Below are positions 11,463 to 34,339 of a DNA stretch of 64,000 nucleotides, piece by piece. Each line of letters starts with the position of its first letter. Position 1 is the first letter of the stretch. The translations under genes were made by a program, and so were the position numbers. This DNA is from Thuidium tamariscinum (taxonomy: Eukaryota > Streptophyta > Bryopsida > Hypnales > Thuidiaceae): positions 41,836,821 to 41,900,820 of the forward strand of contig OX344750.2 in NCBI GenBank assembly GCA_947034885.2, read 5' to 3'. The notes under the pieces were generated by a model. It had not been told where the DNA came from and made no database searches. It saw only the letters and a program-made list of their open reading frames with translations.

Positions 11463-13131
11463 TGTAGATAACCGAGTTGGATAGAATTTTTACAATTTTT
11501 TGTTGAGTTTTGTGACTAAATTTTGGGTTTTTGGGTACCTAATTGTAAAGTTGTGTGGTAATTTTACAAGTTTCAGCAATGTTTTTCACCAATTTGGAGT
11601 TGATCTGTGTTAAGTTTGAAGCCAGGTTCAGTCCTTGTATTAATCCAAGTTGGTTTTCTTTGTGAGATTTGGGTTGCAAATATAGGATTGTGCAGTCTGG
11701 GGAGTTGCTGCCAATTAGGATGTTTGTTTTGCATTATCCGAGTAGGTTGGTTGAGGTGGATGTGAGTTGCCAAATGGAAATGTCAGTTGATTCAGTTGGT
11801 GCAGCCGAATTGATTGAGGCAGTTGGTCTCCTTCTTCCTCTTTCCTATTTGGTCTCATTTTTGTTTCATTTTTGTTTTACCCTCTGTTGAAGTAATCCAG
11901 TGCGTGTCCCAGTCAGTTAGGCTGTGTATTTCGTTTTCTTTGTGTTTGTGTTCTTGTGTCTGAGTGTGTGATTCCCAGTTGGGAATGGTGTTTGTGTAGT
12001 CCGAGTTGGTCAGAGTGTTTGAGAATTTGTGTCCTAGTGGGATGAATGTGTCTGTATTTGATGTGATGGATTTAATTCTTCCTATTTTGGAATGTCTATG
12101 AATTTACAGTTTTAGAATCTGAGTTGAATTGCCATATCTTGATGAAGTTTAAAATTGTGGAAGTATGAAAACTAATTGGAAGAATTGTAGAGATTCATCT
12201 TTAGAGTCCAATTAGGAGAAATTAGAAAACTAAATTGTAGAGCAGCATAGTCAAAATTATTAAAACAATTTAGTTATAATTTAGATCTGTGAGACTTTGA
12301 AAATCTGATAATACTTAAAAGGTGATTTGTTCACCAAATTGTTATGATAGAAAAATTTACATTGTGTTGATGATCACTGTTATGTAAGGAATTAATTTTT
12401 CCCATCATTGTAGTAAATTGAATTAAATTCCAAATTGTATTTGGTGAAGATGTATGCTGGAATGAATTATGCAATTTGGTATGTCATGTGAAATCCGAAT
12501 GTGAATGATGTATGTTCCAAGTTGGAATGATATGCACTGTTTGTAATATTATTTTCCCAATTGGAATCTTGGTGGTGATATGTTGAATGTGATATTCCGA
12601 ATTGGTAGTCTGCATGAGAGAAAAATATAAAACCAATTTGGTAAGTTAACTTTGGAAGTCAAATCGGAGAGTAAAGATCCTGTGATCTTTTGTAAGTAAA
12701 GACCGAATTGGAATTGCTCAGTTGTTGTGAACTGGAACCTATTCGGAGACTGGTGCTGTGTTGTGAAGACCCAATTTGGAGACCAAGCCGTGATGCCGAA
12801 TTGGAAAGGAGAAAATAAAGAAAAATAAATAAATAAAAGAAAAATAAATAAAGAATAAAAGAACAAAGAATTAAAGATTAATTGGGAGAAACTCTTAACC
12901 CTTGTGGCCTTTAAGAGTGGAGTGGCAAATTTTGAAATTAGATTCATCGTGAGGAAAAATAATATATCATTTATAATAAAGGAACAATTTGATTTCATTT
13001 CCTATTTAAATGCAATGATCCGATTAGGCGTAGCTAGAAGTAATCCTATTTAAAAGACCTCCATAGGAACGAACTATACTATTAGCCTTGGGTTTGTTTA
13101 ATTTAATTATTAGCACCAAAGCTTATCTACA
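11463..13131 (+). repeat. 5' LTR of the Ty3 element
   Basis: Identical to 23885-25553 apart from a few A/G differences. It holds at least 16 exact copies of CCNANTNGG (for example starting at 11472, 11589, 11645, 11711, 11738, 11974, 12001, 12208, 12517, 12556, 12597, 12633, 12703, 12738, 12771, 12796). No clear TATA box was picked out. Confidence 0.95.
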
Positions 13132-13134
13132 TTT

Positions 13135-13153
13135 TGGCACCGTTGCCGGGGAG
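13135..13153 (+). other. Primer-binding site
   Basis: TGGCACCGTTGCCGGGGAG three bases after the 5' LTR. This is the form of PBS common in plant Ty3 elements of the Athila/Tat type. The exact primer tRNA is not determined here. Confidence 0.75.
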
Positions 13154-13221
13154 GCATCCAAATAGGTTTTTTCCTTTTTCTTTTCTCGTTTTAGCTAATG
13201 GTATAGTTATGTTGCACTGGT

Positions 13222-13794
13222 ATGAGCAACAAATCCGTACCTACAGAGTCTAGTAAACAAGCTAGGAACGAAAGAGCAAAGAAAAGGGAAGCCAATAAAG
13301 AGCAAAAATTTACCTCTAAAGCCGAATCGGAGCCAGCCTCACCTAGTTGGAAGGATCCGTTCCAGTTGGGACATTTCTTCCGACATAGGCGGGAGCGTCA
13401 TCAAATTGTAGAAAGTGAATCAAGTATAGATAATGTACGAGTAGGTAGAGTAAATCCACATTTATTAAAAAATAAAAACAAATTTCCAGTTGTAGAGCAA
13501 TTTGGAGATCATCACACGTTATGTGACCCTATTTGCATTTCAAATAATCCCTCCCCACAAAACTCTGTGGAAGAGCAAAGTGAGGAGGAATACTTTGAAC
13601 AAACCAATTTGGAAGTGGTTGGGGAAAGTCAGCCTCAACAGGAGATTTCTCCTGTTATAGAATCCCCATTAGGATCCTTTCAAGGACGGTTCACCCCAAT
13701 TGAAAAGAAGGATATATTACCAACTTGGTATAAATCCAGTTTCAAGTCCAGAAGTAGGCCGAATAGAAATCCCATTTGTATTCCGCCAGGATAA
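13222..13794 (+). CDS. Gag N-terminal part (first frame)
   Basis: This 190-codon frame opens with the first good ATG after the primer-binding site and is highly charged: a basic start (KQARNERAKKREANKEQK) followed by a Ser/Glu-rich linker. It overlaps the next frame, which starts at 13700. The protein-like sequence appears to switch from this frame to the next near 13730-13740, so either a 1-base indel broke one ancestral gag or a frameshift is used in expression. It carries no recognised domain. Several motif copies (ccgaatcgg at 13322, cctagttgg at 13342) lie in it. Confidence 0.6.
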   Translation: MSNKSVPTESSKQARNERAKKREANKEQKFTSKAESEPASPSWKDPFQLGHFFRHRRERHQIVESESSIDNVRVGRVNPHLLKNKNKFPVVEQFGDHHTLCDPICISNNPSPQNSVEEQSEEEYFEQTNLEVVGESQPQQEISPVIESPLGSFQGRFTPIEKKDILPTWYKSSFKSRSRPNRNPICIPPG

Positions 13795-15304
13795 TGAAGT
13801 ACGGGTTTTAAACCGAAACTTGGATTTAACAGAGTTTTCAAAAGTTACGCAATCTTCTGATTTGAGTGATTCTGATGTTGTGAATGAATTTAATGGTTCT
13901 AGTGAATCTAATGTTTTGAGTGATTCCAGTGTATTGAGTGATTCATCGGAGTCAAATAGCTCTAGTGTTGAAAGCCAAATTGTTGAAGAAGAAATTATAA
14001 TGGCAGCCCCAATTGCACAAATCCCAATGGTAATGCGTCCTGGTGATGAGGCCGATAGACCTTATTCACTGATGCCATTTCCTAATTTTAATGGCCGAAT
14101 GGGCGATGACCCTGATAGCCACATTTACCAATTTTTGACTTGTAATGCAAATAATGCACGAACTGAGGCTCATTTCCTTAGTATTTTTCCGGGTACATTA
14201 GCAGATCAAGCCCTACGTTGGTTTCAACGCCAACCAGTTGGACATTTTACAACTTGGAATGGATTAAGGGATGAGTTTTTAGCCCATTTTAGACCTACTT
14301 CTTATGAAGAGAAATTATATGAAAGATTAGGGGAATTACAAATGTCGAGTGGGGAACGAATAGATGCTTATTATGGGCGTTTAGAAGAAATACTTTTGAG
14401 GTTACCTAATCATGAGCTTCCTAATGCTCATATTAAGAGACAATTTATAAACGGTCTTTATCCCCCTAGACTCAAAGCCTTTGTTAAGGAAGCTAGCCCT
14501 GCAACATTACTTGCAGCTTATCAAAGAGCTAAAATTTGGGAAGAAATTCATTATGGTGAAACTTATATCCCACCAACTATGGGTCAACAAAGTTATATAG
14601 ACCAAGTTGGTGTGAGAAAGGAAGACTTGGGAGGTACTAAGGTGCCTACCTATACTCAACCTAATTATGTAAATGTAGTGCCTTCTCTTCCTATCCAAGT
14701 GGCCCCTACAATTCCAGTAGATCCTAATAGAATAAATCAAATCATGGTACCACCTACCCAAGTGCAGTTGGGAGGACGAGAGACCAATTCGGCAATGGAA
14801 GCCCAGTTAGTAGAAATTACCAAACAATTGGGAAATTTGCAAATGAATTTAGCTAATACAGTAGAAAAGAAGGGGCAACCTAATAATGACCGTGCTCATA
14901 TTTGGTGCACAAATTGTCATGGGCATGGGCATTTATTGCCGGATTGCCCTTCTCCACCAAATTTGCCACCTAAATGTAGGTTTTGTGGGTTAAAACATGA
15001 AACTGAGTCATGTAGAAATATGCAGGCTAGTTTGGTGCAACAAGCCAATCAAAATAGAAATGGTCAAGTTTACCAAGTAGAAATGAATGATAATAATATG
15101 GGTAATAACCAAAATTGGGGTTATAATAACAATAGGCCTAGGAGGCGTAATTTTAATTCAAATTATAATCAAGGGCAAAATTTTAATCCTAATTCGAATA
15201 TGGTGAACCCAAATTTTAACCCTAATAATTTTAATAATGGTGGCTATAGTAATAACCCAAATAGGGGAGTAGCCCAAATGCCGACTAGCAATAACCAAGG
15301 ATGA
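13700..15304 (+). CDS. Gag polyprotein: capsid domain and first zinc region
   Basis: A Retrotrans_gag domain is readable at about residues 115-290: YSLMPFPNFNGRMGDDP, then HFLSIFPGTLADQALRWF, then the conserved WNGLRDEFLAHF. This is the structural protein that forms the virus-like particle and binds element RNA. The C-terminus is Asn-rich and has two Cys/His clusters: CTNCHGHGHLLPDC, a good zinc knuckle, and CRFCGLKHETESC. The frame ends in TGA at 15302-15304, but the same frame stays open to 15889, so this stop is likely a mutation (CGA to TGA is one transition). The true start of this frame is unclear because of the upstream frame switch. Confidence 0.85.
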   Translation: MKRRIYYQLGINPVSSPEVGRIEIPFVFRQDNEVRVLNRNLDLTEFSKVTQSSDLSDSDVVNEFNGSSESNVLSDSSVLSDSSESNSSSVESQIVEEEIIMAAPIAQIPMVMRPGDEADRPYSLMPFPNFNGRMGDDPDSHIYQFLTCNANNARTEAHFLSIFPGTLADQALRWFQRQPVGHFTTWNGLRDEFLAHFRPTSYEEKLYERLGELQMSSGERIDAYYGRLEEILLRLPNHELPNAHIKRQFINGLYPPRLKAFVKEASPATLLAAYQRAKIWEEIHYGETYIPPTMGQQSYIDQVGVRKEDLGGTKVPTYTQPNYVNVVPSLPIQVAPTIPVDPNRINQIMVPPTQVQLGGRETNSAMEAQLVEITKQLGNLQMNLANTVEKKGQPNNDRAHIWCTNCHGHGHLLPDCPSPPNLPPKCRFCGLKHETESCRNMQASLVQQANQNRNGQVYQVEMNDNNMGNNQNWGYNNNRPRRRNFNSNYNQGQNFNPNSNMVNPNFNPNNFNNGGYSNNPNRGVAQMPTSNNQG

Positions 15305-15310
15305 TTACAA

Positions 15311-15889
15311 ATGCCATTTGGCAATATAGATCAAGGCCCACCTACCTATGGTGGTCAAGTCCCAAATTGGAATCAAAATAAATCAGTCATTTGTTTTCAT
15401 TGCCGCCAACTAGGCCATTATAAGTCCCAATGTCCTAATGCTAAAGCTAGTGTGGACTATGTACCCCAATGTGGGAATTGCCATCAGGCTAGCCATACGG
15501 CCAATGAATGCAATGGCCCTCGTAGAAATGAGTCAAATGATGGTTATAATAATAAGAAACGTGACAGTAGTGCCAAAATAGTGTTATTGGATGAGGAAGA
15601 TGGATCTAAAAATAATAAAGAGCGCACTTCCTATTTAGTCCAAATTGAAGAAAAAATTCAGCCTTCCCCACAAAAAGGAGAAAAGGTTGTGAGAAAAGTG
15701 TCTACTAGAGGGCAGATAATTAAGGAAAATCCTTCAGGCAAATTGGAAGTATTACGTGATAAGGAAATTACTAGGAAAGAAGCCCAACAATTGTTAGAAC
15801 AACAAAATCAAATAGGATTGAAAACTAATTTGGAATTGGCCTTACAACCATCCCAGTTGAGTAATCAACCAAATTGGAATGGTAAATAG
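15311..15889 (+). CDS. Gag nucleocapsid part with CCHC zinc knuckles
   Basis: Same frame as the preceding segment, after the TGA. It has a canonical CCHC knuckle CFHCRQLGHYKSQC and a second one CGNCHQASHTANEC, the RNA-binding module of nucleocapsid. A charged linker leads toward the protease. It ends in TAG (15887-15889), which would be a sense codon after a single change (CAG in the simplest case). The segment is part of one gag-pol frame, not an independent gene. Confidence 0.8.
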   Translation: MPFGNIDQGPPTYGGQVPNWNQNKSVICFHCRQLGHYKSQCPNAKASVDYVPQCGNCHQASHTANECNGPRRNESNDGYNNKKRDSSAKIVLLDEEDGSKNNKERTSYLVQIEEKIQPSPQKGEKVVRKVSTRGQIIKENPSGKLEVLRDKEITRKEAQQLLEQQNQIGLKTNLELALQPSQLSNQPNWNGK

Positions 15890-15898
15890 CCTACCGAG

Positions 15899-17833
15899 TT
15901 GGAAGAGGATCCAGCTCCTGTTATTATAAAACCAAATGGGAAATCAGTCCAATTTGATCCCATAATTAATTCAGTACCTTTTGAGTCTAATCAGCCAAAT
16001 TGGATAGCTATGCCTCAAGTTACTCTAGTTTCCGAATTGGTACAACTAGTGAATCCAATTGAGAAAGAACAGTTGGTTATACCACCAATTTGGATGGAGA
16101 GTGAGGATCAGGACAAATTGGATGCAACTAAATGGGGTAACAGGGATAAGATAAAAAATCAAAACCAAATTGGAAAAAGTGTTAAACCACCAATTAAAAG
16201 AAAGAAAGAAAGGTTTAACCAAATTGGAATAATTGATGAGGCCAATCCTTACGATGTCATGGAGGACTTGGGGAAAGCCAAGGCTGATATATCAATTCGC
16301 CAACTGTTAGGAATTGCTCCTAGTTGTAGGGTGGTTCTTAAATCCAAATTGGTAAGAAAAAGAAGTAGGCTAGTCCATGAGGTGGCATTGAGCCTAGATC
16401 CTGGTGCTCCTGTAATTGATGTAGAAATAGAAGGCTTAATTATTTCTGGTGTCCAAGTAGATGGAGGGTCCAGTGTTAATTTAATGAATAATGAAACAAT
16501 GTTGGGACTTCATCTAGTTGGTCTTCAAGAAACAAAATTGGTTTTGCGTATGGTAGACCAAAGTAGGGTGAAGCCTTTGGGTATTTTACCTAAGGTAAAA
16601 ACACGTATTGCAGGCTTGATGTTTTTAATTGATTATATTGTCTTCCAACCAAATACTCCGAATGCCTCTTATCCTATCCTACTAGGTAGGCCGTGGCTTT
16701 ATCAAGCCAGAGTTAGGGATGATTGGGGTAGAGGAGTTATGCGTATTTTCCAAGGAAATCATGCAGTAAGTATGACGATGTATCCCATAAAATATAAAGG
16801 TGAAACCCAATGGGAATCACCAGGAGATACCAGTGACTTTGGGTACGATTCCGAATTGGATGATGTCCCTACAAATAGAATTAATATGAAATTAAGGAAA
16901 CATGACCAAGTCGGAATTATAGAAAATTATAAAGAAGTAGCCCCTGGTGAATATGTCATACCATGTGAGGATGATGACAATTCGGATAAAGCCATCCAAT
17001 TTTGGTTGACAGACTCTTCAGTCTATGGCGTCAATTCCGATTGGGAAGGAAGTGAATCCAGTGAGGAGATTTTGAGTGACCAATTTGGAGATGTTCCTAT
17101 TAGGTCTTATGTATCCAAGGTTCATTGTCAAAATATTAATATTGGAATAGATGGTGAAGAAAAAAATATTCAAATCTTTAAAGGATTAAGTGAGAGGGAA
17201 TTGGCCAAATGGGTCCATTTCTTTAAACAAAATTCAAAAACTTTTGCTTGGTCTTATAAGGATTTGAGGGGAGTTTCTCCAACTATTTGTGAACACCATA
17301 TAGATTTAGATGATGGTGCCAAGCCAATTAGGCAAAGACCCCATCGATTAAATCCGAAATATTCCTTATTAGTAAAGGATGAAATTGAGAAATTAATTAA
17401 TATTGGTTTTATTTACCCAGCCCCAAATAGTGAGTGGGTTAGTCCAATAGTAATTGTACCTAAAAAGGATGGACGCATCCGGATATTTCAGGATTTTCGA
17501 AAATTGAATGCGGTTACCAAAAAGGATGGATTTCCCTTACCGTTTACGGATAGTATACTTGATACCGTGGCCGGTCATGAATGTTACTCATTCATGGACG
17601 GGTTCTCTGGGTACAATCAAATACAAATTGCAAAAGAAGATCAAGCTAAAACAGCATTTGTTACCGATTTGGGTATTTATGCCAGTAAAGTTATGTTGTT
17701 TGGACTTTGTAACGGGGCAGCTACATTCCAACGTGTAGCCACGTTAGCCTTCCAAGATTTCCTAAGAAAATTTATGGAAATTTTCTTGGATGACTTCTGT
17801 GTTTTCGGTACCAAATCGGAGCATCCGCAATAG
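15899..17833 (+). CDS. Pol: aspartic protease and first part of reverse transcriptase
   Basis: Still the same frame. A retropepsin-like domain lies at about residues 150-300 with VDGGSSVNLM at 16457 onward: the catalytic D is followed by GGS, a variant of the usual DTG/DSG, and ILLGRPWL is the conserved flap-distal motif. The reverse transcriptase follows from about residue 440: IRQRPHRLNP, DGRIRIFQDFRKLNAVT, SFMDGFSGYNQI, FGLCNGAATFQR and the catalytic box FLDDF (17783 onward), a variant of YxDD. TAG at 17831-17833 stops translation inside RT; CAG to TAG is the simplest origin. Confidence 0.9.
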   Translation: MEEDPAPVIIKPNGKSVQFDPIINSVPFESNQPNWIAMPQVTLVSELVQLVNPIEKEQLVIPPIWMESEDQDKLDATKWGNRDKIKNQNQIGKSVKPPIKRKKERFNQIGIIDEANPYDVMEDLGKAKADISIRQLLGIAPSCRVVLKSKLVRKRSRLVHEVALSLDPGAPVIDVEIEGLIISGVQVDGGSSVNLMNNETMLGLHLVGLQETKLVLRMVDQSRVKPLGILPKVKTRIAGLMFLIDYIVFQPNTPNASYPILLGRPWLYQARVRDDWGRGVMRIFQGNHAVSMTMYPIKYKGETQWESPGDTSDFGYDSELDDVPTNRINMKLRKHDQVGIIENYKEVAPGEYVIPCEDDDNSDKAIQFWLTDSSVYGVNSDWEGSESSEEILSDQFGDVPIRSYVSKVHCQNINIGIDGEEKNIQIFKGLSERELAKWVHFFKQNSKTFAWSYKDLRGVSPTICEHHIDLDDGAKPIRQRPHRLNPKYSLLVKDEIEKLINIGFIYPAPNSEWVSPIVIVPKKDGRIRIFQDFRKLNAVTKKDGFPLPFTDSILDTVAGHECYSFMDGFSGYNQIQIAKEDQAKTAFVTDLGIYASKVMLFGLCNGAATFQRVATLAFQDFLRKFMEIFLDDFCVFGTKSEHPQ

Positions 17834-18934
17834 TTAAAAAAATGTTTTGAAAAATGCTTTGAATTTGGTATCTCGTTAAATGCGGCTAAGTGCCAATTTG
17901 TGGTGCCATATGGGAAACTATTAGGCCACATCATGAGTAAAAGAGGAATTAGTACAGACCCAGATAAGGTGAGTAAAATATCCAAATTACCTATTCCTAA
18001 TAGTATTACCCAAGTAAGGGGATTTCTTGGTCACGTAAGTTATTATAGACGTTTTATAGAAAATTATGCCCAAATAGCATTACCATTGACTGCCCTTCTT
18101 AAGAAATTAGAAGTTGGTACTCATCCTATTTGGACATTGGAATGTGATGAAGCTTTTATAAAGTTAAAAGAGAAATTAATAACAGCCCCGGTTTTAATAT
18201 CACCAAATTGGAGTGAACCTTTCCATGTATATGTCGATGCTAGCAATGTGGCAATGGGGTGTATATTGAGTCAGAAAGATAAATCTAATAAAGATCACCC
18301 TATCTACTACGCTAGTCGTCAATTTATACCTGCAGAGAGAAATTATACCACCACAGAGCGGGAGGCTTTGGGTATGGTATATGCGGTGCAAAAATTCCAC
18401 CACTACCTACTTGGTTATAAATTTACCTTTTACGTGGACCATGATGCGCTTAAATATGTAATAAACAAGCCGCAATTAAGTGGCCGTTTGGCTCGGTGGG
18501 TATTGCTTTTACAGGAATTTAATTTCAATATAATAGTACGTCCCGGTAAGCAACATTCAAACGCTGATTTTTTATCCCGTATTAATGAGTCTTCAAATTC
18601 AAGTGGGTCCCCGGTTGAAGATGATATTCCCGATGCGGACCTATTTGAAGTGGATGTTATTCATACGGAATATGCAGATATTTTAAATTATTTATTCACG
18701 GGTACATTCCCTAAGGATTATACTTCGAAGCAAAAACAAGCCCTACTTAGAAAAAGTAGCCCTTATACGTTAGTCGATCAAACTTTATATAAGATGGGTC
18801 AAGATGGGGTTCTTCGAAGATGCATATATAAAAGTGAGGTAAAGGATATTTTGCAAAGTTGCCATTCAGATTCAGCTGGTGGCCATTTTGCAGGAATTTC
18901 CACAGCCCAAAAAGTATTATTGGCTGGATATTAG
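17834..18934 (+). CDS. Pol: RT thumb, RNase H, integrase zinc finger (start)
   Basis: Frame continues directly after the TAG with RT thumb motifs (LNAAKCQFVV, LLGHIMSKRGI), then RNase H: HVYVDASNVAMGCILSQ, TTTEREALGMVYAV, FYVDHDALKYV and ADFLSR, giving the acidic D-E-D set. The first two histidines of the integrase HHCC finger (near CHSDSAGGHF) follow. A further TAG at 18932-18934 stands where plant integrases have the first Trp of the YWWP motif, so TGG to TAG is likely. The longest ATG-initiated piece starts at 17900, but that ATG is internal to RT. Confidence 0.88.
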   Translation, partial: LKKCFEKCFEFGISLNAAKCQFVVPYGKLLGHIMSKRGISTDPDKVSKISKLPIPNSITQVRGFLGHVSYYRRFIENYAQIALPLTALLKKLEVGTHPIWTLECDEAFIKLKEKLITAPVLISPNWSEPFHVYVDASNVAMGCILSQKDKSNKDHPIYYASRQFIPAERNYTTTEREALGMVYAVQKFHHYLLGYKFTFYVDHDALKYVINKPQLSGRLARWVLLLQEFNFNIIVRPGKQHSNADFLSRINESSNSSGSPVEDDIPDADLFEVDVIHTEYADILNYLFTGTFPKDYTSKQKQALLRKSSPYTLVDQTLYKMGQDGVLRRCIYKSEVKDILQSCHSDSAGGHFAGISTAQKVLLAGY

Positions 18935-19918
18935 TGGCCATCTCTATTTAGGGATGCCCACGAATTTGCAAAACATTGTGATCCGTGCCAACGCATAGGT
19001 AAACCCTCACCTTCCACTTCTATGCCTTTAATACCCCTAATGGCATTAGCCCCATTTGAAAAATGGGGAATAGACTTCGTAGGTCCTATAGCCCCAGCTA
19101 CAAAATATGGGCGAAAACGCTATATCCTAGTGGCAACGGATTATGCTACAAAATGGGCTGAGGCTATGGCCACTCGCCATGATGATGCTAAAACCGTAGC
19201 CCGGTTTTTATACGAAAATATTTTGTCCCGATTTGGATGCCCAAGGGAGTTAATTAGTGACCGGGGCACTCATTTTTTAAATTCTACAATTGAAGAATTG
19301 ACTACTAGGTTTGTTATTAAACATAGAAAAACAGCCCCATACCACCCCCGTGCTAATGGGCAGACTGAAAAAACGAACGGTATATTATGTAAAATTTTGA
19401 CTAAGACTATTAGTGGTGCTGCTACCGATTGGGACGACAAACTATGGAGTGCCTTATGGGCATATAGAATTGCCTATAAGGGTACTACAGGGTTTTCCCC
19501 ATTCCAATTGGTATACGGCCAAGAGGCTATATTACCTATAGAATTTGAAATTCCTAGCCTAAGAGTGGCTATAGAAAACAAATTGGGTGACGAAGAAAGT
19601 CTAAGAGCCCGACTCACCAATTTGGAAGCACTCGATGAAAAGAGGCGGGAGGCCTATTTAAATACTCTAGCTACCCAAAATAGGAGAAAATCCTATTATG
19701 ATTCTAAATTGCGTCCTAAAGAATTCAAAGTAGGTAATTTGGTCTTGTTATATGATAGTCGTTTTTTCAAATTCCCAGGTAAATTGCAAATGCACTGGAT
19801 TGGTCCATATGAAGTTGTCGATGTCAATCCTAATGGGTCATTGCAATTAAAAGATTTTGAAGGCAATTTGCTTCCAACTAGGATAAATGGTTATAGGCTT
19901 AAGCCTTATTTTTCCTAA
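18935..19918 (+). CDS. Pol: integrase catalytic core and C-terminus
   Basis: Begins after the TAG with the CC half of the zinc finger (HCDPCQR), then the D,D-35-E core: KWGIDFVGP with the first D, LISDRGTHF with the second, and YHPRANGQTEKTNG with the glutamate. The C-terminal part (GNLVLLYDSRFF, KLQMHWIGPYEV) is the usual Ty3 integrase GPF/Y-like end. No chromodomain follows, and the frame ends at TAA 19916-19918. This separates the element from chromoviruses. All catalytic acids are present, so only the stops prevent activity in cis. Confidence 0.92.
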   Translation, partial: WPSLFRDAHEFAKHCDPCQRIGKPSPSTSMPLIPLMALAPFEKWGIDFVGPIAPATKYGRKRYILVATDYATKWAEAMATRHDDAKTVARFLYENILSRFGCPRELISDRGTHFLNSTIEELTTRFVIKHRKTAPYHPRANGQTEKTNGILCKILTKTISGAATDWDDKLWSALWAYRIAYKGTTGFSPFQLVYGQEAILPIEFEIPSLRVAIENKLGDEESLRARLTNLEALDEKRREAYLNTLATQNRRKSYYDSKLRPKEFKVGNLVLLYDSRFFKFPGKLQMHWIGPYEVVDVNPNGSLQLKDFEGNLLPTRINGYRLKPYFS

Positions 19919-19936
19919 TGCCGAGGATGGCATTTT

Positions 19937-19948
19937 TATTTGGGGGGA
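19937..19948 (+). other. Internal polypurine tract after pol
   Basis: TTTGGGGGGATA lies about 20 bases after the pol stop, where most plant Ty3 elements have the 3' polypurine tract just before the LTR. Here the LTR is nearly 4 kb further on. It may be an internal priming site or a relic of an older 3' end. Confidence 0.45.
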
Positions 19949-20964
19949 TAGTTATTATAGTAAGTAATATGTATAGACAAGTTAATAAAAAATAAATACG
20001 TACATAAAAAAAAAACTAAAAAAAAAATATAGCATATTAAGTACAATGAGAGTATAGATTGCTATAATAAAATGCAATTAGGAATAATCTAGTGATAGAC
20101 TATATAGTAAAGAGAGTAAAATAAAAATAAAAGTAAAAACAATACATAAAAACGTAAACATAAAAATAATAGACATTAATTGTAGAAAAATATATTAATA
20201 TATTAAAAGAAAAAGAAAAAGAAAAAGACAAAATAAGGCTAAACTAAAAAAATAAAAAAAAATAAAAAATATAAGAATAAAAATGAAGAAAAGAGTGGGA
20301 AATACCAATTCGGAGAGGTCAAATCGGAGATGACTTACCAATTGGGGACGGAAAGCTGATGAGGACAAATTGGAAGTGAGCATATCATTTCAAATGGGCA
20401 TCATTCTCAAGCCGCCAAATTCCAACCAAATCGGAGGGGATCTTGAAAGGCGAGAACCGAATTGGAAATGTGGATGCAAATCGGTTTGAGAAACCAAGGC
20501 GCACTGTAGTGCAAGAAGATTCGTGGTTCCAATTCGTGTTGAGTCTGAATTGTCCATGAGTGCAAATCAGTTTGAGGAATTTTGTAGTGCGAGGTTTGTT
20601 GAGTGCTATGCGATTCCAAGTCGGAGAGCAGAGCGAGGTAACCTGACGAGCGATTAGGGTTGGTTGCGTGAGTCCTTGAGTGAAGTTTGAGAGTTTTGTT
20701 TTTCAATGTGGTTGTTTTGATTTGGGGAGAGCGTGATTCCAATTAGGGCTGTTGAGGAGGCGCACCAAAGCGAGATGAGAGAGGAGCCTAGTCGGAAATT
20801 GCGAGAGTGTCCGCGTGGTGGGGATTTCTTGTCTTCTGGCTGGGACCGTGAGAGGTCTGTGGGAAGCGAGCGGAGGGGAGCGGGAGCTCAATCCGAGTGG
20901 CAGTGAGGTTTTGCGTGCCAAATTGGAGCATTTGCCGAGAGATCAGGTTGTGGTTTGCAGGTGA
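19949..20964 (+). other. Linker between pol and the third ORF
   Basis: First about 330 bp are extremely A-rich, then from about 20300 the sequence becomes GC-richer and dense in AATTGG/AATCGG words. No ORF is convincing on either strand. This may be the leader, promoter or spliced region of the third ORF; GTTGTGGTTTGCAG just upstream of the ATG at 20965 could supply a splice acceptor. Confidence 0.5.
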
Positions 20965-21169
20965 AATGTCAGGCCTAAGTGGGAAAGAACACGAACCAGA
21001 GGAAGAGGAGACCGAGTTGGTGGATCCTGAAGCTCATGTGAACAAGAAATTGAAGTTGGGGGACGAGGAGGATGCACCAGTACAGGTCGTGCCAACAGAG
21101 TTCCGAGTGGGATCGGCGTTGCCATTTGAAATTTCCGATTGGGAGGGGCCGCAGTTGTTGAAGATTTAA
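20965..21169 (+). CDS. Third ORF of Ty3 element, N-terminal segment
   Basis: The ATG at 20965 opens an acidic N-terminus (EPEEEETELVDPEAHVNKK) in the same frame as the three larger segments downstream. It ends in TAA at 21167-21169 (CAA or GAA one change away). A short basic patch NKKLKL could be a nuclear localisation signal, but this is weak. I recognise no family. Position between integrase and the 3' LTR is where Athila, Tat and retrovirus-like plant elements carry env-like or accessory ORFs, but there is no signal peptide or membrane segment here. Confidence 0.55.
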
Positions 21170-22252
21170 GAGGCTGGCCTGTGGAAGTTTGTGGATACAA
21201 TCCAAAGCTTGGGCCATGTGAATGTCGACCGATTGGAGGTGTTCACAATGGCATACAACATTGGAACGAGGAAGAGCGGTGTGTGGTCTGAGGTGATCGA
21301 TTTGTTGGCGCCGAGGGTCGCAGAGGTGTTCAAGTTACCCAATTTGGGTCTGAGGGTGGCAGCAGTGCAGGGTGATGCAACCTATTCGGCAGAAGGTTGT
21401 TTTGTGGAAAACTGCCCACCAGAGGAGCAATCAAAAGAAGAATGGAAAATCGAGTCTTTGTTGCCGATTTGGAGACGATGGACCGAGTTGGTGGTCGGGC
21501 AATTGATGTTGGAGCCGGCAGGGGACGTGGTTTCCAGGCAGAATTTCCGAGTTGTGGTGGCGACGCAGCGAGGCGTGGGCATCAATTGGGCCTTGTTCTT
21601 CACACGCAGGCTGCATAACCAAGTGGAGCTTTTCAAGAAGAAGAAGAGCGAGGTGCTCAATGGGGCGTCATTTCTTTCCTACTTGGTGGACCAGAGCTGC
21701 CCAGAAGTGCCCGAGTCGGAGTTGCAGCCCAAGGAGGATCCTGGTGCTACTACAGGTGAAGCGAGTGCGAGTAGGTGGGGAGTCCCAGTGCAGCCGAAAG
21801 GTTCACTTAAGTCCCAGTTGGCTCAGGTGTTATCCAATTGGGAGGATGTGGATAGTTCCCAACTCGAGCTGTTGAAGAAGCAGAATGCCAAGCTGACTTT
21901 GGAGCTCGAGCAGTTGCGTGAAGAATTGAAGGCAGTCAAGCAGGAGCGAGTGGAGTATGAAGCCCGAATGGTGAAAGACTATGAGGAAGTTGTCACCAAG
22001 TTGGAAGTTTCTGAGTTGCACGTGGAGCGCGCAGAGCGGAAGGCCAAGTCGGAGGCTAGCGCGAAGAATGCTCTTCAATCCCGAGTATGGAGTATGGAGC
22101 GCGAGTTGGAGAATTGGAAATCCAAGTTAAACAAGGTGATTGACAAATCAGAGTCTTCACAGACCGAGTCGGAAGAAGAATTTTTGGCACCCAAATCGGA
22201 GGAGCCTGTAGGTTTGGAAGCCGGATGCCTCAGGGTGCAGGAGTGGTACTAA
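21170..22252 (+). CDS. Third ORF, middle segment with coiled coil
   Basis: Same frame; an internal Met at 21248 or the GTG/ATG region at 21191 is where isolated ORFs would begin, but no stop-free restart is needed if the upstream TAA is secondary. It has a globular part (VDRLEVFTMAYNIGTRKSG, LPIWRRWTELVVGQLML), then a long heptad-rich coiled coil from about 21850 to 22180 (LLKKQNAKLTLELEQLREEL). An acidic Ser/Glu stretch follows. It ends in TAA at 22250-22252. Coiled coil implies homodimerisation, which would fit a dyad-symmetric DNA target; this is inference. Confidence 0.6.
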   Translation, partial: EAGLWKFVDTIQSLGHVNVDRLEVFTMAYNIGTRKSGVWSEVIDLLAPRVAEVFKLPNLGLRVAAVQGDATYSAEGCFVENCPPEEQSKEEWKIESLLPIWRRWTELVVGQLMLEPAGDVVSRQNFRVVVATQRGVGINWALFFTRRLHNQVELFKKKKSEVLNGASFLSYLVDQSCPEVPESELQPKEDPGATTGEASASRWGVPVQPKGSLKSQLAQVLSNWEDVDSSQLELLKKQNAKLTLELEQLREELKAVKQERVEYEARMVKDYEEVVTKLEVSELHVERAERKAKSEASAKNALQSRVWSMERELENWKSKLNKVIDKSESSQTESEEEFLAPKSEEPVGLEAGCLRVQEWY

Positions 22253-23119
22253 AAGTTCAATTCGGGTAAGAAAGAGAAGGAAGAGGCTAAGTCGACCCCG
22301 ATTAGGAAGCGACAGAAGGTTCTTCATGTGACCGATTTGAAGGCTTTGTCGGAGTTGATTCCTCCCACAACCAATTTGGAGTTTGCTTACGCTTGGGAAC
22401 GGGAGGTATTTTTCCTCTATACAGGATTAACTTATCGGGAGGATGTATCTCGGGCGAGATTCAAAACAATTTGGAATCGGGCAATCCAGTTGCGAAGTGA
22501 GAACTTGTTTGCAGAGATAGTAGCAAGAGGCGACATCAATTTGGTGGACAATGTGTCGGCTTTCTGTCACATTGCTGACTTTGGAGCGCGCAGCTTGCTG
22601 TTCTATTCCGAATTGGAGGCCGTGTTGGAGAGAAGGCGGCGGGTAGCAGAGTCCTATTTGGAACAGCAGAGAGTGTACACAAGCAGTCGGTTGAATGACA
22701 AATTGGAGGAGAAGATCAAGTTGGAGGCATCGTCATCGAAGGGCAAGGGGTTGCTGCCGCAGGCCGATTGGGAGAGGACGCTGTCTACATTAAATGCAGC
22801 ATTCACGACGCAAGATTGGGTCCACGAATTGGTCAAGAATGCACATGAGCGGATTATGCAGGGCCAAGTGGTGGATGTGCATCCAGCTGCTTATGTGCTC
22901 AAGTTTGGGATGACGAAGGCTAGGTTGGAGACGAAATTGAAGGCGAGGTTTGTGCAGAATATTCCCAAGTGGAGTGTCTCGTTCGAGTTGGTGTACAGAA
23001 GACCACAAATCGGGGAAAAGATTTATCGGATGCCAGGTGTGTCTCCAAGCTTGGTAACTTGGACTCTTCCTCCACCTTCCTATTCGGATGCAGATGATCG
23101 CTACTTGGGGTATTACTAG
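22253..23119 (+). CDS. Third ORF, basic linker and second globular domain
   Basis: Continues in frame with a strongly basic stretch (GKKEKEEAKSTPIRKRQK), a candidate nuclear localisation signal, followed by a domain with many conserved-looking aromatic and charged residues (FAYAWEREVFFLYTGLTYRE, FCHIADFGARSLLFYSELE) and an alpha-helical Arg-rich region. The nearest ATG is at 22328. The segment ends in TAG at 23117-23119. Codon use and GC content resemble the other ORF3 segments, unlike the AT-rich pol. Function unknown. Confidence 0.6.
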   Translation, partial: KFNSGKKEKEEAKSTPIRKRQKVLHVTDLKALSELIPPTTNLEFAYAWEREVFFLYTGLTYREDVSRARFKTIWNRAIQLRSENLFAEIVARGDINLVDNVSAFCHIADFGARSLLFYSELEAVLERRRRVAESYLEQQRVYTSSRLNDKLEEKIKLEASSSKGKGLLPQADWERTLSTLNAAFTTQDWVHELVKNAHERIMQGQVVDVHPAAYVLKFGMTKARLETKLKARFVQNIPKWSVSFELVYRRPQIGEKIYRMPGVSPSLVTWTLPPPSYSDADDRYLGYY

Positions 23120-23845
23120 AATTTGTTTGAGACGCCCGCTGATGTTCCGTTTCCTAGTTGGGATGCGTTGCTGTGGATTGGCAAGGATCATGCTCATGTC
23201 CACAGGTCACCAATAGTTCCCTTGGACCGATTGGACCATACGGAGCGTTCTATTCGGTCGCCTCTTCCACCTCCAGCTATGACGGGAGATGTGCGTTATT
23301 GTCCCTGCCCTCGACGCTACCTGTGGAGCGAGTCAGCCAAGTTGGATACTGTGTGGTATAACTGGCCAAGGATTAGCGGCAATTTCACCACCCCTGAGGA
23401 GTGCGAGCAGGCGTATACCCAATTCGCGTTGGTGCACCAGAGTCACAGGGACCCAGTGTGTTTCCGTGCCAGTGTTTTTGCAGCGGTGTTGGCGAGTTGG
23501 TGTCGTGAGCACCAATTTGTGGTGGATTACCGAGTTGGAGCCAGGCTGAGTACAGACATAGAGATTTTCTCTAAGATTCATTACCACTCGGCTAGGAGGA
23601 TTCGAATGTTGGAGTTGATGTGCGTGACCCAATTCTTGCTAGGGGCACATAATGTCCTAATCGGAGATGCTTGTGTAGCCTTGGGTACACGCAGGGGTCC
23701 AGCTATGGCGTTTTACCCAGCACAACGTCGGGTGTGGAGGGCTCGCTCCGAGTTGGCCAGCAACCTAGAAAGAGAAGAGGAGAATCCAGTTTTGCAGTTG
23801 GCGGCCAAGGGGAAGACGTCCAAAGGTCGTATTTTGTCCAAGTAG
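23120..23845 (+). CDS. Third ORF, C-terminal domain
   Basis: In frame after the TAG. Cys/His residues are scattered (CPCPRRYLW, SWCREHQF) but do not form a recognisable zinc finger. Helical segments (IHYHSARRIRMLELMCVTQF) and a basic Lys-rich tail end at TAG 23843-23845. Full third frame from 20965 is about 960 codons with three stops and no frameshift. It is likely one large protein of the element's active relatives. I found no similarity to env, chromodomain or known transposase from memory. Confidence 0.6.
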   Translation, partial: NLFETPADVPFPSWDALLWIGKDHAHVHRSPIVPLDRLDHTERSIRSPLPPPAMTGDVRYCPCPRRYLWSESAKLDTVWYNWPRISGNFTTPEECEQAYTQFALVHQSHRDPVCFRASVFAAVLASWCREHQFVVDYRVGARLSTDIEIFSKIHYHSARRIRMLELMCVTQFLLGAHNVLIGDACVALGTRRGPAMAFYPAQRRVWRARSELASNLEREEENPVLQLAAKGKTSKGRILSK

Positions 23846-23867
23846 GCATGTTTGCGGGGACGCAAAC

Positions 23868-23884
23868 AAATGGGAGTGAGGCTA
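23868..23884 (+). other. 3' polypurine tract
   Basis: AAATGGGAGTGAGGCTA directly before the 3' LTR; purine-rich plus-strand priming site. It is a weaker tract than the G-run at 19937-19948. Confidence 0.5.
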
Positions 23885-25553
23885 TGTAGATAACCGAGTT
23901 GGATAGAATTTTTACAATTTTTTGTTGAGTTTTGTGACTAAATTTTGGGTTTTTGGGTACCTAATTGTAAAGTTGTGTGGTAATTTTACAAGTTTCAGCA
24001 ATGTTTTTCACCAATTTGGAGTTGATCTGTGTTAAGTTTGAAGCCAGGTTCAGTCCTTGTATTAATCCAAGTTGGTTTTCTTTGTGAGATTTGGGTTGCA
24101 AATATAGGATTGTGCAGTCTGGGGAGTTGCTGCCAATTAGGATGTTTGTTTTGCATTATCCGAGTAGGTTGGTTGAGGTGGATGTGAGTTGCCAAATGGA
24201 AATGTCAGTTGATTCAGTTGGTGCAGCCGAATTGATTGAGGCAGTTGGTCTCCTTCTTCCTCTTTCCTATTTGGTCTCATTTTTGTTTCATTTTTGTTTT
24301 ACCCTCTGTTGAAGTAATCCAGTGCGTGTCCCAGTCAGTTAGGCTGTGTATTTCGTTTTCTTTGTGTTTGTGTTCTTGTGTCTGAGTGTGTGATTCCCAG
24401 TTGGGAATGGTGTTTGTGTAGTCCGAGTTGGTCGGAGTGTTTGAGAATTTGTGTCCTAGTGGGATGAATGTGTCTGTATTTGATGTGATGGATTTAATTC
24501 TTCCTATTTTGGAATGTCTATGAATTTACAGTTTTAGAATCTGAGTTGAATTGCCATATCTTGATGAAGTTTAAAATTGTGGAAGTATGAAAACTAATTG
24601 GAAGAATTGTAGAGATTCATCTTTAGAGTCCAATTAAGAGAAATTAGAAAACTAAATTGTAGAGCAGCATAGTCAAAATTATTAAAACAATTTAGTTATA
24701 ATTTAGATCTGTGAGACTTTGAAAATCTGATAATACTTAAAAGGTGATTTGTTCACCAAATTGTTATGATAGAAAAATTTACATTGTGTTGATGATCACT
24801 GTTATGTAAGGAATTAATTTTTCCCATCATTGTAGTAAATTGAATTAAGTTCCAAATTGTATTTGGTGAAGATGTATGCTGGAATGAATTATGCAATTTG
24901 GTATGTCATGTGAAATCCGAATGTGAATGATGTGTGTTCCAAGTTGGAATGATATGCACTGTTTGTAATATTATTTTCCCAATTGGAATCTTGGTGGTGA
25001 TATGTTGAATGTGATATTCCGAATTGGTAGTCTGCATGAGAGAAAAATATAAAACCAATTTGGTAAGTTAACTTTGGAAGTCAAATCGGAGAGTAAAGAT
25101 CCTGTGATCTTTTGTAAGTAAAGACCGAATTGGAATTGCTCAGTTGTTGTGAACTGGAACCTATTCGGAGACTGGTGCTGTGTTGTGAAGACCCAATTTG
25201 GAGACCAAGCCGTGATGCCGAATTGGAAAGGAGAAAATAAAGAAAAATAAATAAATAAAAGAAAAATAAATAAAGAATAAAAGAACAAAGAATTAAAGAT
25301 TAATTGGGAGAAACTCTTAACCCTTGTGGCCTTTAAGAGTGGAGTGGCAAATTTTGAAATTAGATTCATCGTGAGGAAAAATAATATATCATTTATAATA
25401 AAGGAACAATTTGATTTCATTTCCTATTTAAATGCAATGATCCGATTAGGCGTAGCTAGAAGTAATCCTATTTAAAAGACCTCCATAGGAACGAACTATA
25501 CTATTAGCCTTGGGTTTGTTTAATTTAATTATTAGCACCAAAGCTTATCTACA
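23885..25553 (+). repeat. 3' LTR of the Ty3 element
   Basis: Same length as the 5' LTR and nearly identical. Followed by the target-site duplication GGGAT at 25554-25558. Polyadenylation and U3/R limits are not visible. Confidence 0.95.
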
Positions 25554-26669
25554 GGGATCTAGGAGGAATCCCCCACTCCCCATAGCATCAAAGAGAATAC
25601 GGGCGAAATACTAACCTTGAAATGAAGGTATCGGGCGATTTCCTAATTCTAGGAGCACGCAGTGGGGATGCAGATTTGCATCCAAGTGGGGGGGATCCCA
25701 TGGGTGGTCCCCTCTAAAGTTTGGGAATTTTCCGACATCGTTTGGATATTTTCCCAGACAGTCAACCGCGGTGGACTTTGGATGGGAATTCGAAAGAATA
25801 TTCCAAAGTGCGGTAAAATCCCACTAAAAATCTGGCGAGGCAGTCTCACACCAACGGAGCGCTTCCCCAAGTTTCAAGACAAATCGATAGTTGGAAGATC
25901 CCGAATCGGCGACATTCCTCCCCAACTGACAAATTAAATGACGGAAGTTGCAGTTGACCGACGTACCGGGGCCATATGACATCGGAACGAAGCCTATCTT
26001 GGGTCTATTCCTACCCCCCTCTATCCACTTAAGAGATTGGTGAAGGTTTGGGGTTCAAAATTGCCAAACTCCAAAAGTTGGGAATTTATCCCAACTTTGA
26101 CCCCAGCTTATACTAAGATTCCTTGAGAATTTGGACATAGTGTAAGGGGTTAGAGGTTTTATTCAGGCTAATTATGGCCTTCCGGACCTAATGGCGCAAT
26201 CCGTTTGCCATTCGGAGCTAAACTCCAAAAGTTAGCCTTTTGGAGACAGTACATGGAGGAGAAATGGGGATTTAAGGCCCCCCAATGCTTTTGGGGGGAG
26301 TTTTGGCCCCAATGGCCGTGGGGAACGTGTAGGGAACGTGTGGGGAACTCCGGGCACATGTGGGAGCAAGTACCACCTCAAAAAGTTAGTGGAGGTGGCC
26401 CCAAATACTTGGTGTAAGTAATTTCAAATTAAGTAGGTGGGAACACATGGGAACTTCTCCCATATGAGAATTTGTAGATTTGGGGGAAGGTAAATTAGGT
26501 GGTTTTGCAAGTTCTTGTAAGGTTAGGTAAGATTTGAATTTCTCAATTCAAATTGTGTAGATTTTAGGTGGATAGTTAGATTTGGGATGGGTAAACATAT
26601 ACGGACCTCTTAAATTCCCTCATCTAGTTATTCTTAGTAGATTAAGGGGGGGGGTTGCTCCCTTTTGAG

Positions 26670-26677
26670 TATAAAAG
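26670..26677 (+). promoter_or_regulatory. TATA box of LTR copy 2
   Basis: TATAAAAG before a GGGGCGGCATCC block and a CT-rich stretch, in the same context as copy 1. Marks the probable U3/R junction of the long-LTR family. Confidence 0.6.
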
Positions 26678-27010
26678 GGGCGGCATCCTCCTCTCATTCT
26701 CTCTCTTTTCTCACTCCTACCCATTTAAGGGAGGAGGACTATTGGGCCCGGGTTATGCTGGATTTCTTTTGGCTTTTGATGCCAAGGGAGCCTTTGATGG
26801 TCTTTTGGGGTTTTTACACCCTTTGGTAAGTGTGGTTTGTACTTGGGGACTTGAGACCCCCCCAAGTTGGTGGAATTTTATGCAATTTAATCTTGTTTCA
26901 CTCTTGTATTGTGCCACTATTGAGAGATGTTGTGGGAGAGAACTAGGGAGGAACCGAGGAATTAATAGGGAGGTGACTTTGAGAGTATATTGCATCTTGT
27001 GTTCACTCTC

Positions 27011-27262
27011 TTCTCCCTCTTCTCTTGTTCACGGGGTTAATCTAGTCCCATAGGGGACGGTGAAGCTTTGGCTATTAGTACTTAGGAAGTTGTGTGCTCA
27101 CTTCTTCTCCCTCTTCTCTTGTTCACGGTATTGAATTAAGTCCCATAGGGACGACGAAGCTTTGAACCCCCTAAGGGTCAAAGCAACTAATCTTTTCCTT
27201 CTCCCTCTTCTCTTGTTCACGGTATTGAATTAAGTCCCATAGATACGGCGAAGCTTTGAACC
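27011..27262 (+). repeat. About 95-bp tandem repeat in LTR copy 2
   Basis: Three units start TTCTCCCTCTTCTCTTG at 27011, 27104 and 27199, each ending with a GACGAAGCTTTGAACCCC-like block. Copy 1 has a single such unit near 1125, and copies 4 and 5 carry the block inverted. So the array expanded within the family. Confidence 0.8.
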
Positions 27263-27760: not shown

Positions 27761-28299
27761 TGGCTGGCCGATTGTAAACTCTTAGAATAGGGGATAGTGT
27801 AGAGGTAGAAAATAGAATAGAAGATAGTTTAGAGGTAGATACTAGTTTAAGGGATAGTTTAGAAGTAGAAGGTAATTAGAGGAATAGTGTAGAGATAGTT
27901 TAGGAGATTAGTATAGAAATAGTTTAGGAGTGAGACCCAAGTCAAGAACAATCATAAAAGGTAGTCTAGGAGCACAATTGTAAAAGGAAGGGAAACAAAT
28001 TGAGAATAAAGGGCTAACTATCGCACACAGAACGGCGGAGGTTATGGAGGCGGCATGGAACAAGGAGGCCCGGCATGGGGCACACACGGAAAGGAGGTGG
28101 GCCTCTAAAACTCTCTTTTGATTTAATTTGTTAATGCAATTAGGAATTAATTAGTAGGAAAGGATTAGCAACCCCGGTAAGATTAAGGTCCGGTAATTAG
28201 CAAATACAAATAGGAGGACAACCACAACTAGAATAGAAATAAGAAGAATGCGTACGCAAACATAGAATAGAATATGGAGAAGTGAAATAAAAGGAACAA

Positions 28300-28720
28300 G
28301 GACAAATACGTAGAGTGGGACAAAAGAATACAAATACATAGAATAGATTAAAAAGAATACAAATACGTAGAATAGATTAAAACCAAGACAAATACATAGA
28401 GTAGACTAAAGCAAAGACAAATACGTAGAGTAGGACAAAAGAATACCAATACGTAGAGTAGACTAAGACTAAGACAAATACGTAGAAGTAGGTTAAGATA
28501 AATACAAATACGTAGAATAGGATAAAAATACAAGAACGTAGAGTAGGCCCAAACAAATACAAAGACGTAGTGTAGATTAAAAGAATACCAATATGTAGAG
28601 GTAGACTAGACAAATACAAAGACGTAGAAGTAGGTTAAGATAAATACCAATACGTAGAATAGGATAAAAATACAAAGACGTAGAGATGGGGTAGGAAATA
28701 CCATACGTAAAGTGGGCTAA
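28300..28720 (+). repeat. Short tandem repeats near the end of LTR copy 2
   Basis: Many units around AATACGTAGA(G/A)TAG with spacing of roughly 28-36 bp, equivalent to the 28-bp array of copy 1. Spurious minus-strand ORFs rich in Leu, Tyr and Phe arise from the repeats. Confidence 0.75.
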
Positions 28721-29034
28721 AACAAATCCAAACACGTAGAAGTAGGATAAACAAGAACAAAACATAGAAGTAGAATAGGAGAGTGAAACACATAAAGTAA
28801 GGAAATAATTAGAAGTAGGACAAGAGAACGAAACACATAAGGTAAGAAAGCAACTAGAAGTAGGACAAGAAAATGAAACAAGTACACACCCAGGATAATT
28901 AGGATAGCAAAAGATCCATTGCTTGGAAGGCACAGTGGGTTTGACACTTAGACACCCGTAGGAGTAGATTGGTAAACAAGAGCCTGGTTGTGATCGCTTA
29001 ATTCCAAGGGTAGGAATGAAGCGCCCACATATCT

Positions 29035-33008: not shown

Positions 33009-33277
33009 CATCCACCACTAACTTCCCCCCTTTTGTATTTTTTTTCTTGAAACTTGTGGATTTGTTGGCTGCTTCTCCTTTCCTTGCGTACTCTTCACAA
33101 TTATTGACACATCATTTTCATGCTCCCCATTGGTTGTCTTTCTGTTTTTGCCCAACTACAGTTTAGATGCCTGTACCATCTTCGGACAAGGAAGGTGGGG
33201 TTTTAGTTGGTGCTTGACTCTCCATTGGATCTTTGGGCTTCGCTCTAACAATTGCTTTTTGGTAGCCACTCTATTCA

Positions 33278-34339
33278 CACTAGTAGAAAAAAACAGTGCC
33301 TAAATTAACAAAAATCAACACAAAAGTGTTGATTTTTTTTGTTGATTTGGACGTGTTAATTTGGGTACTTTTTAACACAAAAGTGTTGATTTTTTTGTTA
33401 ATTTGGACACTGAATTTTTTCTTTGAAAATTAATTTTTTTTCAAATTGGACCAATAAGAAGCTACCACGTGGCAAAAGCCACGTAGACAATCCACCAAGC
33501 AAGCAGGACACGTGGTAGTTCCCTTGGGGTGCCACCAGCAAGGTTTGAACCTTGCATCCCATGGCTGAGGTGCAAGGTCCCAGCCATTGCACCACCTTTA
33601 CACATGCATGTGTGTATGGAAAGTTTTTAAAGTTTTATGTAGCTTAAGTGGGTTTTTTCCCATTTTTTAAAAAGTCAGCGTACTTCAAAGGCCATTTAAG
33701 CATAGAAAAACAATTTAAAAAAAACAAATTTGAACTAAGAGAAGTTGCAAAATAGAAGTATCTTTCATCTCCAAAAATCCGTTTGCAATTTGAAGTCTTT
33801 TATCAAAAGTTATGAATTAATTTCAAAGAGGGTTTTTCATAATGTCAAAAAAAATCCAAAGCAACCCCTTTCTGAAATTTAGTCATAACTTTTGATTGGA
33901 GACTTGAAATTGCAAACGGATTTTTGGAGATGAAAGATAATTCTATTTATAAACTTTTCTTAGTTCAAAATTTTTCTAAAAAAGTTGTTTTTCTATGCCT
34001 AAATGGTCTCTGAAGTCTGCTGAATTTAAAAAATACCGAATTGAGAATTTTTTTTAAATTTTTTATTGGGAAACACTATTTATAGAATACTAATTAAGAT
34101 AATTTAAACATTTTCCAAATAGAAAAATTTACTTTAAATATTTTTTAGTCAAAATTAACAAAAAAGTGTTGATTTTTTGTTACTTTGAAGATGCAGTACC
34201 CAAATCAACAAAAAATTTTGTTGATTTGGGCAGTTTTTACATAAATTAACAAAAAACTGTGAAAATGGACGATGCAGTATCGAAATCAACACAAATTTGT
34301 TGATGTTTTGTTAATTTAGGCACTGTTTTTCTACTAGTG
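33278..34339 (-). mobile_element. CACTA-type element, arm A of an inverted pair
   Basis: 1062 bp with CACTAGTAGAAAAA ends and subterminal inverted repeats AGTGCCTAAATTAACAAAA. The interior contains further AACAAAAAATCAACA words in both orientations, so the ends alone can fold. It is the mirror image of 34882-35943 with no difference noticed in the parts compared. No transposase and no obvious 3-bp duplication (TCA left, AAA right). Confidence 0.8.
33542..33594 (-). other. tRNA-like (Pol III box) segment in arm A
   Basis: Mirror of the segment at 35627-35679: A-box-like TGGTGCAATGG and B-box-like GGTTCAAACC. See that entry. Confidence 0.35.

Follow-up and report, generated by a model that had tools for sequence, protein, structure and literature searches.

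An element-wide array of a dyad DNA word in a Ty3-type retrotransposon of the moss Thuidium tamariscinum, a possible target for a self-encoded anti-silencing protein

We found that a Ty3-type long terminal repeat (LTR) retrotransposon of the moss Thuidium tamariscinum is filled from end to end with a short two-fold symmetric DNA word, CCNANTNGG, which occurs at chance level in the DNA on either side. The element lies at positions 11463–25553, on the forward strand, of a 64,000-nucleotide stretch of contig OX344750.2, the whole of which we call the window and to which all coordinates refer. The window contains 125 copies of the word, and 112 of them fall inside the element, where a first-order Markov model predicts 3.68 (maximum 9 in 100 simulations) and a second-order model 6.63 (maximum 13 in 100 simulations). 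With the 3′ LTR omitted, so that only one LTR is counted, 94 copies remain in 12,422 bp, compared with 3.17 expected and a maximum of 9 in 500 dinucleotide shuffles made in 500-bp blocks. When these six bases are rearranged within the shape in the 179 other possible ways, the mean is 1.55 copies in this one-LTR sequence (maximum 7), and the next most frequent dyad of this shape has 14. The flanks hold 2 copies in 11,462 bp (2.4 expected) and 11 copies in 38,447 bp (7.4 expected), that is, 13 in 49.9 kb. A first-pass annotation, made from the sequence alone, had proposed that a dyad word recurs every 50–150 bp through this element and that it should stand out against shuffled and flanking DNA. 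It does, and more strongly than was claimed, with a mean distance between exact sites of 126 bp and a median of 83 bp. None of the 16 coordinates offered there as examples is more than 2 bp away from a real site. Its count of 16 sites in the 5′ LTR was too low (the actual number is 19), and the flanks, which it described as poor in the word, simply carry what chance predicts.

The word is present in every part of the element. It is densest in the 5′ LTR (11.4 sites per kb, with 0.15–0.52 sites expected for the whole LTR) and the 3′ LTR (10.8), followed by a third open reading frame (ORF3; 9.0), the leader (8.8), the spacer between pol and ORF3 (7.6), pol (6.7, or 4.2 from reverse transcriptase to integrase) and gag (3.7). 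When one outer base is freed the number of sites rises to 184, compared with 25 expected from the flanks, and the largest gap is 396 bp. We also scanned the window for gapped words with six fixed bases and a span of 6–11 in 4-kb blocks, keeping the three commonest words per mask and block and listing those with at least 14 copies and more than five times their expectation. CC.A.T.GG is the top word in the blocks starting at 12001, 16001, 20001 and 24001. Other listed words come from blocks 1 and 28001, both of which contain tandem arrays, and weaker ones from blocks 4001, 48001, 52001 and 56001, with z no higher than 9.5 versus 25–41 for CC.A.T.GG. The gaps between exact sites deviate mildly from an exponential distribution (Kolmogorov–Smirnov p 0.018), and we found no clear helical or nucleosomal phasing at periods of 10, 10.5, 11, 147 and 180 (mean vector lengths 0.13, 0.06, 0.14, 0.08 and 0.01).

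The site has a well-defined shape. The first-pass annotation had read it as CCRANTYGG, usually followed by A; the dyad is real, and the site extends to an 11-bp dyad, WCCRANTYGGW, with A or T at both ends. This extended form occurs 43 times in the element and is absent from the 49.9 kb of flanks. Counting the first C as position 0, the 94 sites of the one-LTR set carry R at position 2 in 73 cases and Y at position 6 in 66, and W at positions −1 and +9 in 71 and 78. Positions −3, −2, +10 and +11 show no significant base preference, so the site is 11 bp long and its ends are sharp. The spacing of the half-sites CCNA and TNGG is strict: one intervening base is found 112 times in the element, zero bases 12 times (9 of these overlapping a one-base site), two bases 22 times (11 overlapping) and three to eight bases 7–10 times each. 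Among the 112 sites there are 37 distinct 9-mers, and the bases at positions 2 and 6 are independent of each other (29 complementary pairs, 31.6 expected), neither of which would be expected of a copied repeat. Words with one mismatch are also raised, at 149 over 18 classes or 8.3 each versus 3.1 at two mismatches, as would be expected if weaker sites exist. These features bear the signature of many separate gains of one protein-binding site. The strict spacing and symmetric preferences fit the earlier suggestion that a dyad of this kind would suit a dimeric DNA-binding protein.

The excess acts on nucleotides and not on a peptide, as had been proposed from the occurrence of the word in all three codon phases. 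Sites in phases 0, 1 and 2 number 3, 1 and 4 in gag, 9, 11 and 7 in pol, and 3, 20 and 3 in ORF3. The 27 sites in pol compare with 6.7 in synonymous shuffles (maximum 13 of 1000) and the 26 in ORF3 with 4.1 (maximum 10 of 1000), while shuffles of codon order yield 0.6 to 1.0 sites. Because both kinds of shuffle fall short, codon choice and amino-acid choice must both have been bent towards the word.

The element that carries the array is a complete and young Ty3-type LTR retrotransposon. It has two LTRs, a 5-bp target duplication (GGGAT, within the 4–6 bp typical of Ty3 elements) at either end, and, in order, gag, a zinc knuckle, reverse transcriptase, RNase H and integrase, the last following reverse transcriptase as in Ty3 elements. 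The 5′ LTR (11463–13131, 1669 bp) has its 19 sites at 11472, 11589, 11645, 11711, 11738, 11844, 11974, 12001, 12033, 12208, 12517, 12556, 12597, 12633, 12703, 12738, 12771, 12796 and 13020. The 3′ LTR (23885–25553, 1669 bp) has 18; the pair differ at 4 positions (0.24%), all A/G transitions, one of which, at 24637, destroys the counterpart of site 12208. Directly inside the 5′ LTR is a primer-binding-site-like stretch, TGGCACCGTTGCCGGGG (13135–13151), which may resemble the Athila/Tat primer site. The leader and the first part of the gag reading region (13132–13699) contain 5 sites (13158, 13322, 13342, 13604 and 13665) and are overlapped by an ORF in another frame (13222–13794). The gag region (13700–15889), with capsid and zinc knuckles (Retrotrans_gag, E 7e-14; zf-CCHC, E 9e-5), contains 8 sites (13720, 14095, 14602, 14784, 15257, 15362, 15406 and 15869). 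The 27 sites of pol lie in 15890–19918, a region with matches to RVT_1, RT_RNaseH and rve, and the 1-kb spacer (19919–20965) holds 8 sites (20305, 20338, 20426, 20457, 20616, 20739, 20787 and 20918). ORF3 (20966–23845) is in the sense orientation and has 26 sites, with a 27th at 23838 crossing its end.

The reading frames of this copy are interrupted by in-frame stops in gag (TGA 15302 and TAG 15887), pol (TAG 17831 and TAG 18932) and ORF3 (21167, 22250 and 23117). The stop at 15887 could be where gag ends naturally, since a relative, P0008, ends in a peptide that by eye resembles the one ahead of it. Seven stops compared with only 4 LTR differences suggest that the stops predate the insertion and that the copy was mobilised in trans with borrowed proteins, its template being already broken. 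For pol, the closest named relatives come from the liverworts Riccia fluitans (61% identity across 30% of the query) and Calypogeia fissa (41% across 26%), and gag has a match from the moss Physcomitrium at 25% identity. Direct repeats at 7–1186 and 25894–27073, 79% identical, bracket the element and are followed by related tandem arrays at 1625–2558 and 27783–28880; the young element thus seems to have landed within an older one or between two old copies. Elsewhere in the window, two 1063-bp inverted arms (33277–34339 and 34882–35944) are 100% identical, are separated by 542 bp and each have an internal inverted repeat of 79% identity; they represent either a large fold-back element or an assembly effect. 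An ORF at 53768–54352 encodes a RING-H2 zinc finger (zf-RING_2, E 1.2e-6, above the family cut-off) and is adjoined by repeats at 50530–51056 and 54866–55392 that are 91% identical.

ORF3 is a kept gene, since its relatives P0001 and P0002 match it at 60% and 50% identity. AlphaFold2 run without an alignment predicts a long, coiled-coil-like helix at 21860–22159 (residues 229–330 of the piece 21170–22249), where the 10-residue mean of the predicted local distance difference test (pLDDT) is 78–96 over residues 231–330; most of the rest of this piece is below 50. The predicted helix of about 100 residues is likely a coiled coil and possibly a dimerisation segment. ORF3 also gave weak hits to gp41 constructs (E 0.007), which we attribute to chance coiled-coil resemblance.

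Among 61 protein relatives of the element, we built a tree of 28 sequences consisting of the element itself and the 27 relatives that cover the region. The element and P0021 are sisters with 100/100 support, the element being flagged by the tree program as a long branch. When peptides were scored for compatibility with dyad words, CC.AT.GG was the best of 2240 words in P0021 (8.58 versus 0.70); 0 of 200 permutations reach this score, and a second scoring puts it first across all proteins. P0021 thus seems, on peptide evidence, to use the same half-sites one base closer, CCNATNGG versus CCNANTNGG. As a check of the method on the element itself, CC.A.T.GG headed the 2240 words in 2 of 7 pieces (the pol piece and the second of the gag pieces) and took ranks from 3rd to 64th in the remaining five, among the matches listed. 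Five of the 61 relatives (P0021, P0013, P0008, P0016 and P0011) have z above 5 for peptides compatible with CCNANTNGG; P0011 and P0013 were not counted, part of their score coming from the conserved RNase H peptides PIW and PNW. CC.A......T.GG, seen in several relatives, was put down by eye to the conserved protease peptide PILLG, and most other protein relatives show no clear word. Among viral contigs no DNA of close relatives was found for pol, integrase, alignment A3, P0021 or ORF3, and a scan with the primer-site word gave 33 loci with no more than 0.63 words per kb. A search of genome contigs gave one plant-like contig (BMWJ01000029.1, 37% identity), which has 2 copies of CCNANTNGG in 4.7 kb. 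It encodes a Ty3 pol at 1010–3208 and is filed under Streptomyces clavifer, and is probably eukaryotic contamination.

The reading we favour, with a probability of roughly 0.45, is that the array serves a dimeric DNA-binding protein which the element family most likely encodes itself, ORF3 being the prime candidate, and which acts locally, most plausibly against silencing. About 100 sites of the form WCCRANTYGGW, with CCNANTNGG as core, would be spread along the element for one sequence-specific protein. This protein would bind as a rigid dimer with two-fold symmetry, in which each subunit recognises CCRA and the two half-sites are separated by exactly one base; a dimer is called for by the strict dyad and its sharp ends. 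Sites would have been gained singly by point changes wherever the LTRs, leader, spacer and genes tolerated them. That they were gained throughout the genes points to a short-range effect that benefits the element in cis, as a purely local effect would require sites within genes too. A self-encoded protein that coats the element and marks its DNA as its own would be the simplest fit. If the binder were a silencing factor of the host, selection would be expected to remove the sites. The bound protein would most plausibly exclude silencing marks at short range, much as VANC proteins do on VANDAL transposons, and by this analogy anti-silencing is the best-supported role. A bolder reading, which we put forward only tentatively, is that the whole body including the genes is an array for the element's own dimeric protein and that sister lineages have changed the half-site spacing (CCNA-N-TNGG here, CCNA-TNGG in P0021), so that each would recognise only its own DNA. 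Coding sequence would then carry a self/non-self code that arose independently of VANC and is directed against silencing or towards the sorting of copies.

Several observations weigh against these readings. Pfam profiles recognise no DNA-binding domain in ORF3 and place no family above cut-off, both structure models of it are poor (mean pLDDT 49.9 and 37.3), and in this copy it is broken by three in-frame stops. Taken alone, gag is weak, with 8 sites versus 3.1 in synonymous shuffles whose maximum is also 8. The sites have a mild strand bias, with G at the centre in 33 and C in 6 (p 0.0016 against background) and, of the 112, A at +9 in 69 versus T at −1 in 45; nothing in a perfect homodimer calls for such a bias, to which local composition or coding may contribute. 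Pol residues that carry the word are no better kept in aligned relatives than controls (76/372 versus 1439/5437), so that none of the sites shows positional conservation there; these residues are not ancestral, and the array was therefore built in the present lineage. In the small samples of gag (3/5 versus 43/134) and ORF3 (5/8 versus 50/201) such residues are better kept than controls. The CpG observed/expected ratio, 0.40 in the LTR and 0.63 in the element compared with 0.32–0.72 in the flanks, shows no sign of long-term freedom from methylation, and the low LTR value points rather to past methylation. The P0021 signal is confined to one codon phase (8.0/0.33/0.25), and the peptide PIG occurs there six times, along with PMG, so that a repeated peptide could produce it; the use of both Ile and Met, whose codons share AT, argues for a DNA word.

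The sites might instead serve a host protein that the element uses without encoding it, be it a transcription factor, an insulator or boundary protein, or a centromere or replication factor. An 11-bp dyad with one central base is a usual shape of sites for host dimeric factors such as HD-Zip proteins, and the LTR, where promoters lie, is the densest part of the element at 11.4 sites per kb. There is also the precedent of Drosophila gypsy, another Ty3-type element, in which a single DNA-binding protein, the host factor Su(Hw), has many sites. The gypsy sites, however, form a single cluster in the leader, and known clusters of host sites are confined to one regulatory stretch, whereas here the array is element-wide and fills pol and ORF3 despite protein constraint. 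Outside the element, in the flanks and elsewhere in the window, the word is only as frequent as chance predicts, and a fixed host factor is harder to defend if P0021 truly has another spacing. We consider this explanation unlikely, though a serious one. It is more doubtful still that a self-encoded binder serves some other purpose, such as guiding cDNA into the nucleus or to integration near its own copies, activating its own transcription, or sorting its own copies. The seven stops and 4 LTR differences indicate a copy that probably moved with proteins made elsewhere, and a mark required in cis would explain why arrays are retained in broken copies; local activation of transcription alone, on the other hand, leaves the sites throughout pol unexplained.

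We see little room for a word that acts in RNA or single-stranded cDNA, for example in packaging or nucleocapsid binding. The mild strand asymmetry at the centre and outer positions would suit it, but a six-base dyad with strict spacing and symmetric preferences at −1/+9 and 2/6 looks like double-stranded DNA read by a dimer, and a 9-nucleotide dyad with one central base cannot form a usual hairpin. An artefact of composition, tandem repetition, unit copying or a repeated peptide we regard as ruled out for practical purposes. Codon usage can enrich words, and the contaminant contig described above has one at 13 copies versus 1.0 expected in 4.7 kb. Yet block shuffles, permuted words and synonymous shuffles all fall far below the observed count, the sites comprise 37 distinct 9-mers in three codon phases, the tandem arrays of the element (12812–12855, 13861–13941 and 25234–25277) lack the word, and noncoding LTR and spacer carry it at 7.6–11.4 per kb.

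The closest functional parallel to the favoured reading, a self-encoded protein acting against silencing, is the VANC/VANDAL system, with which the first-pass annotation had compared the element. The VANC21 word is nine bases long, YAGTATTAY, enriched in its own copies and rare outside, and related families use different words. VANC21 acts on CG methylation near its binding sites (PMC5735166). Both systems would combine a short self-enriched word, an extra element gene and a proposed self-specific marking, and this much of the analogy is reasonable. The present word, however, belongs to an LTR retrotransposon and not to a Mu-like element, and it has dyad symmetry. Its copies are dispersed singly and fill coding DNA (27 sites in pol, 26 in ORF3), whereas VANC targets are noncoding tandem repeats, and VANC21 exon probes lack the motif. 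DUF1985, the VANC-type domain, gave no match to ORF3 pieces at E up to 10 or to nine ORFs of the element at E up to 1. The array thus works like a VANC target system but lacks two of its defining features, DUF1985 and noncoding tandem arrays, and is not VANC by membership.

Other systems share single traits with the array. The Spm/En transposon encodes TnpA, which binds repeated subterminal 12-bp sites and is linked to methylation; many copies of one short cis site are common to both, but the TnpA sites lie at the ends of a CACTA DNA transposon and the present ones throughout a retrotransposon, genes included. In the DNA uptake words of Neisseria and Haemophilus a short word likewise runs through coding DNA and is favoured by a DNA-binding protein, although there it marks a bacterial chromosome for uptake and not a eukaryotic mobile element. 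Additional ORFs are reported for Retand, Tekay and other plant Ty3 elements; TRP28 of Retand is predicted to bind DNA, and a modulation of silencing has been proposed (PMC11963269, PMC11728184, PMC12844716). These elements share with the present one an additional gene located between pol and the 3′ LTR, but the ORFs of Retand are antisense, and the passages covered name no element-wide dispersed word. ORF3 is sense, has no Pfam family above cut-off and is not an ORF of the Retand TRP28 type, which lies antisense between pol and the 3′ LTR.

In the literature covered, sequence-specific anti-silencing by a mobile element is described for VANDAL DNA transposons, whose targets are noncoding tandem repeats; no retrotransposon-encoded anti-silencing system and no element-wide word of an LTR element was found among the matches listed, subscription papers being mostly outside this coverage. 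The word itself predicts a binding specificity, and the difference in spacing from the sister lineage predicts a pairing of protein and element. Dispersed self-words of this kind are detectable as an excess over synonymous shuffles, even from protein sequence alone. If the favoured reading is true, such anti-silencing systems would have had a second, probably independent origin, the role of some of the extra ORFs in plant Ty3 elements would be explained, and self-recognition would have been strong enough to reshape protein-coding sequence.

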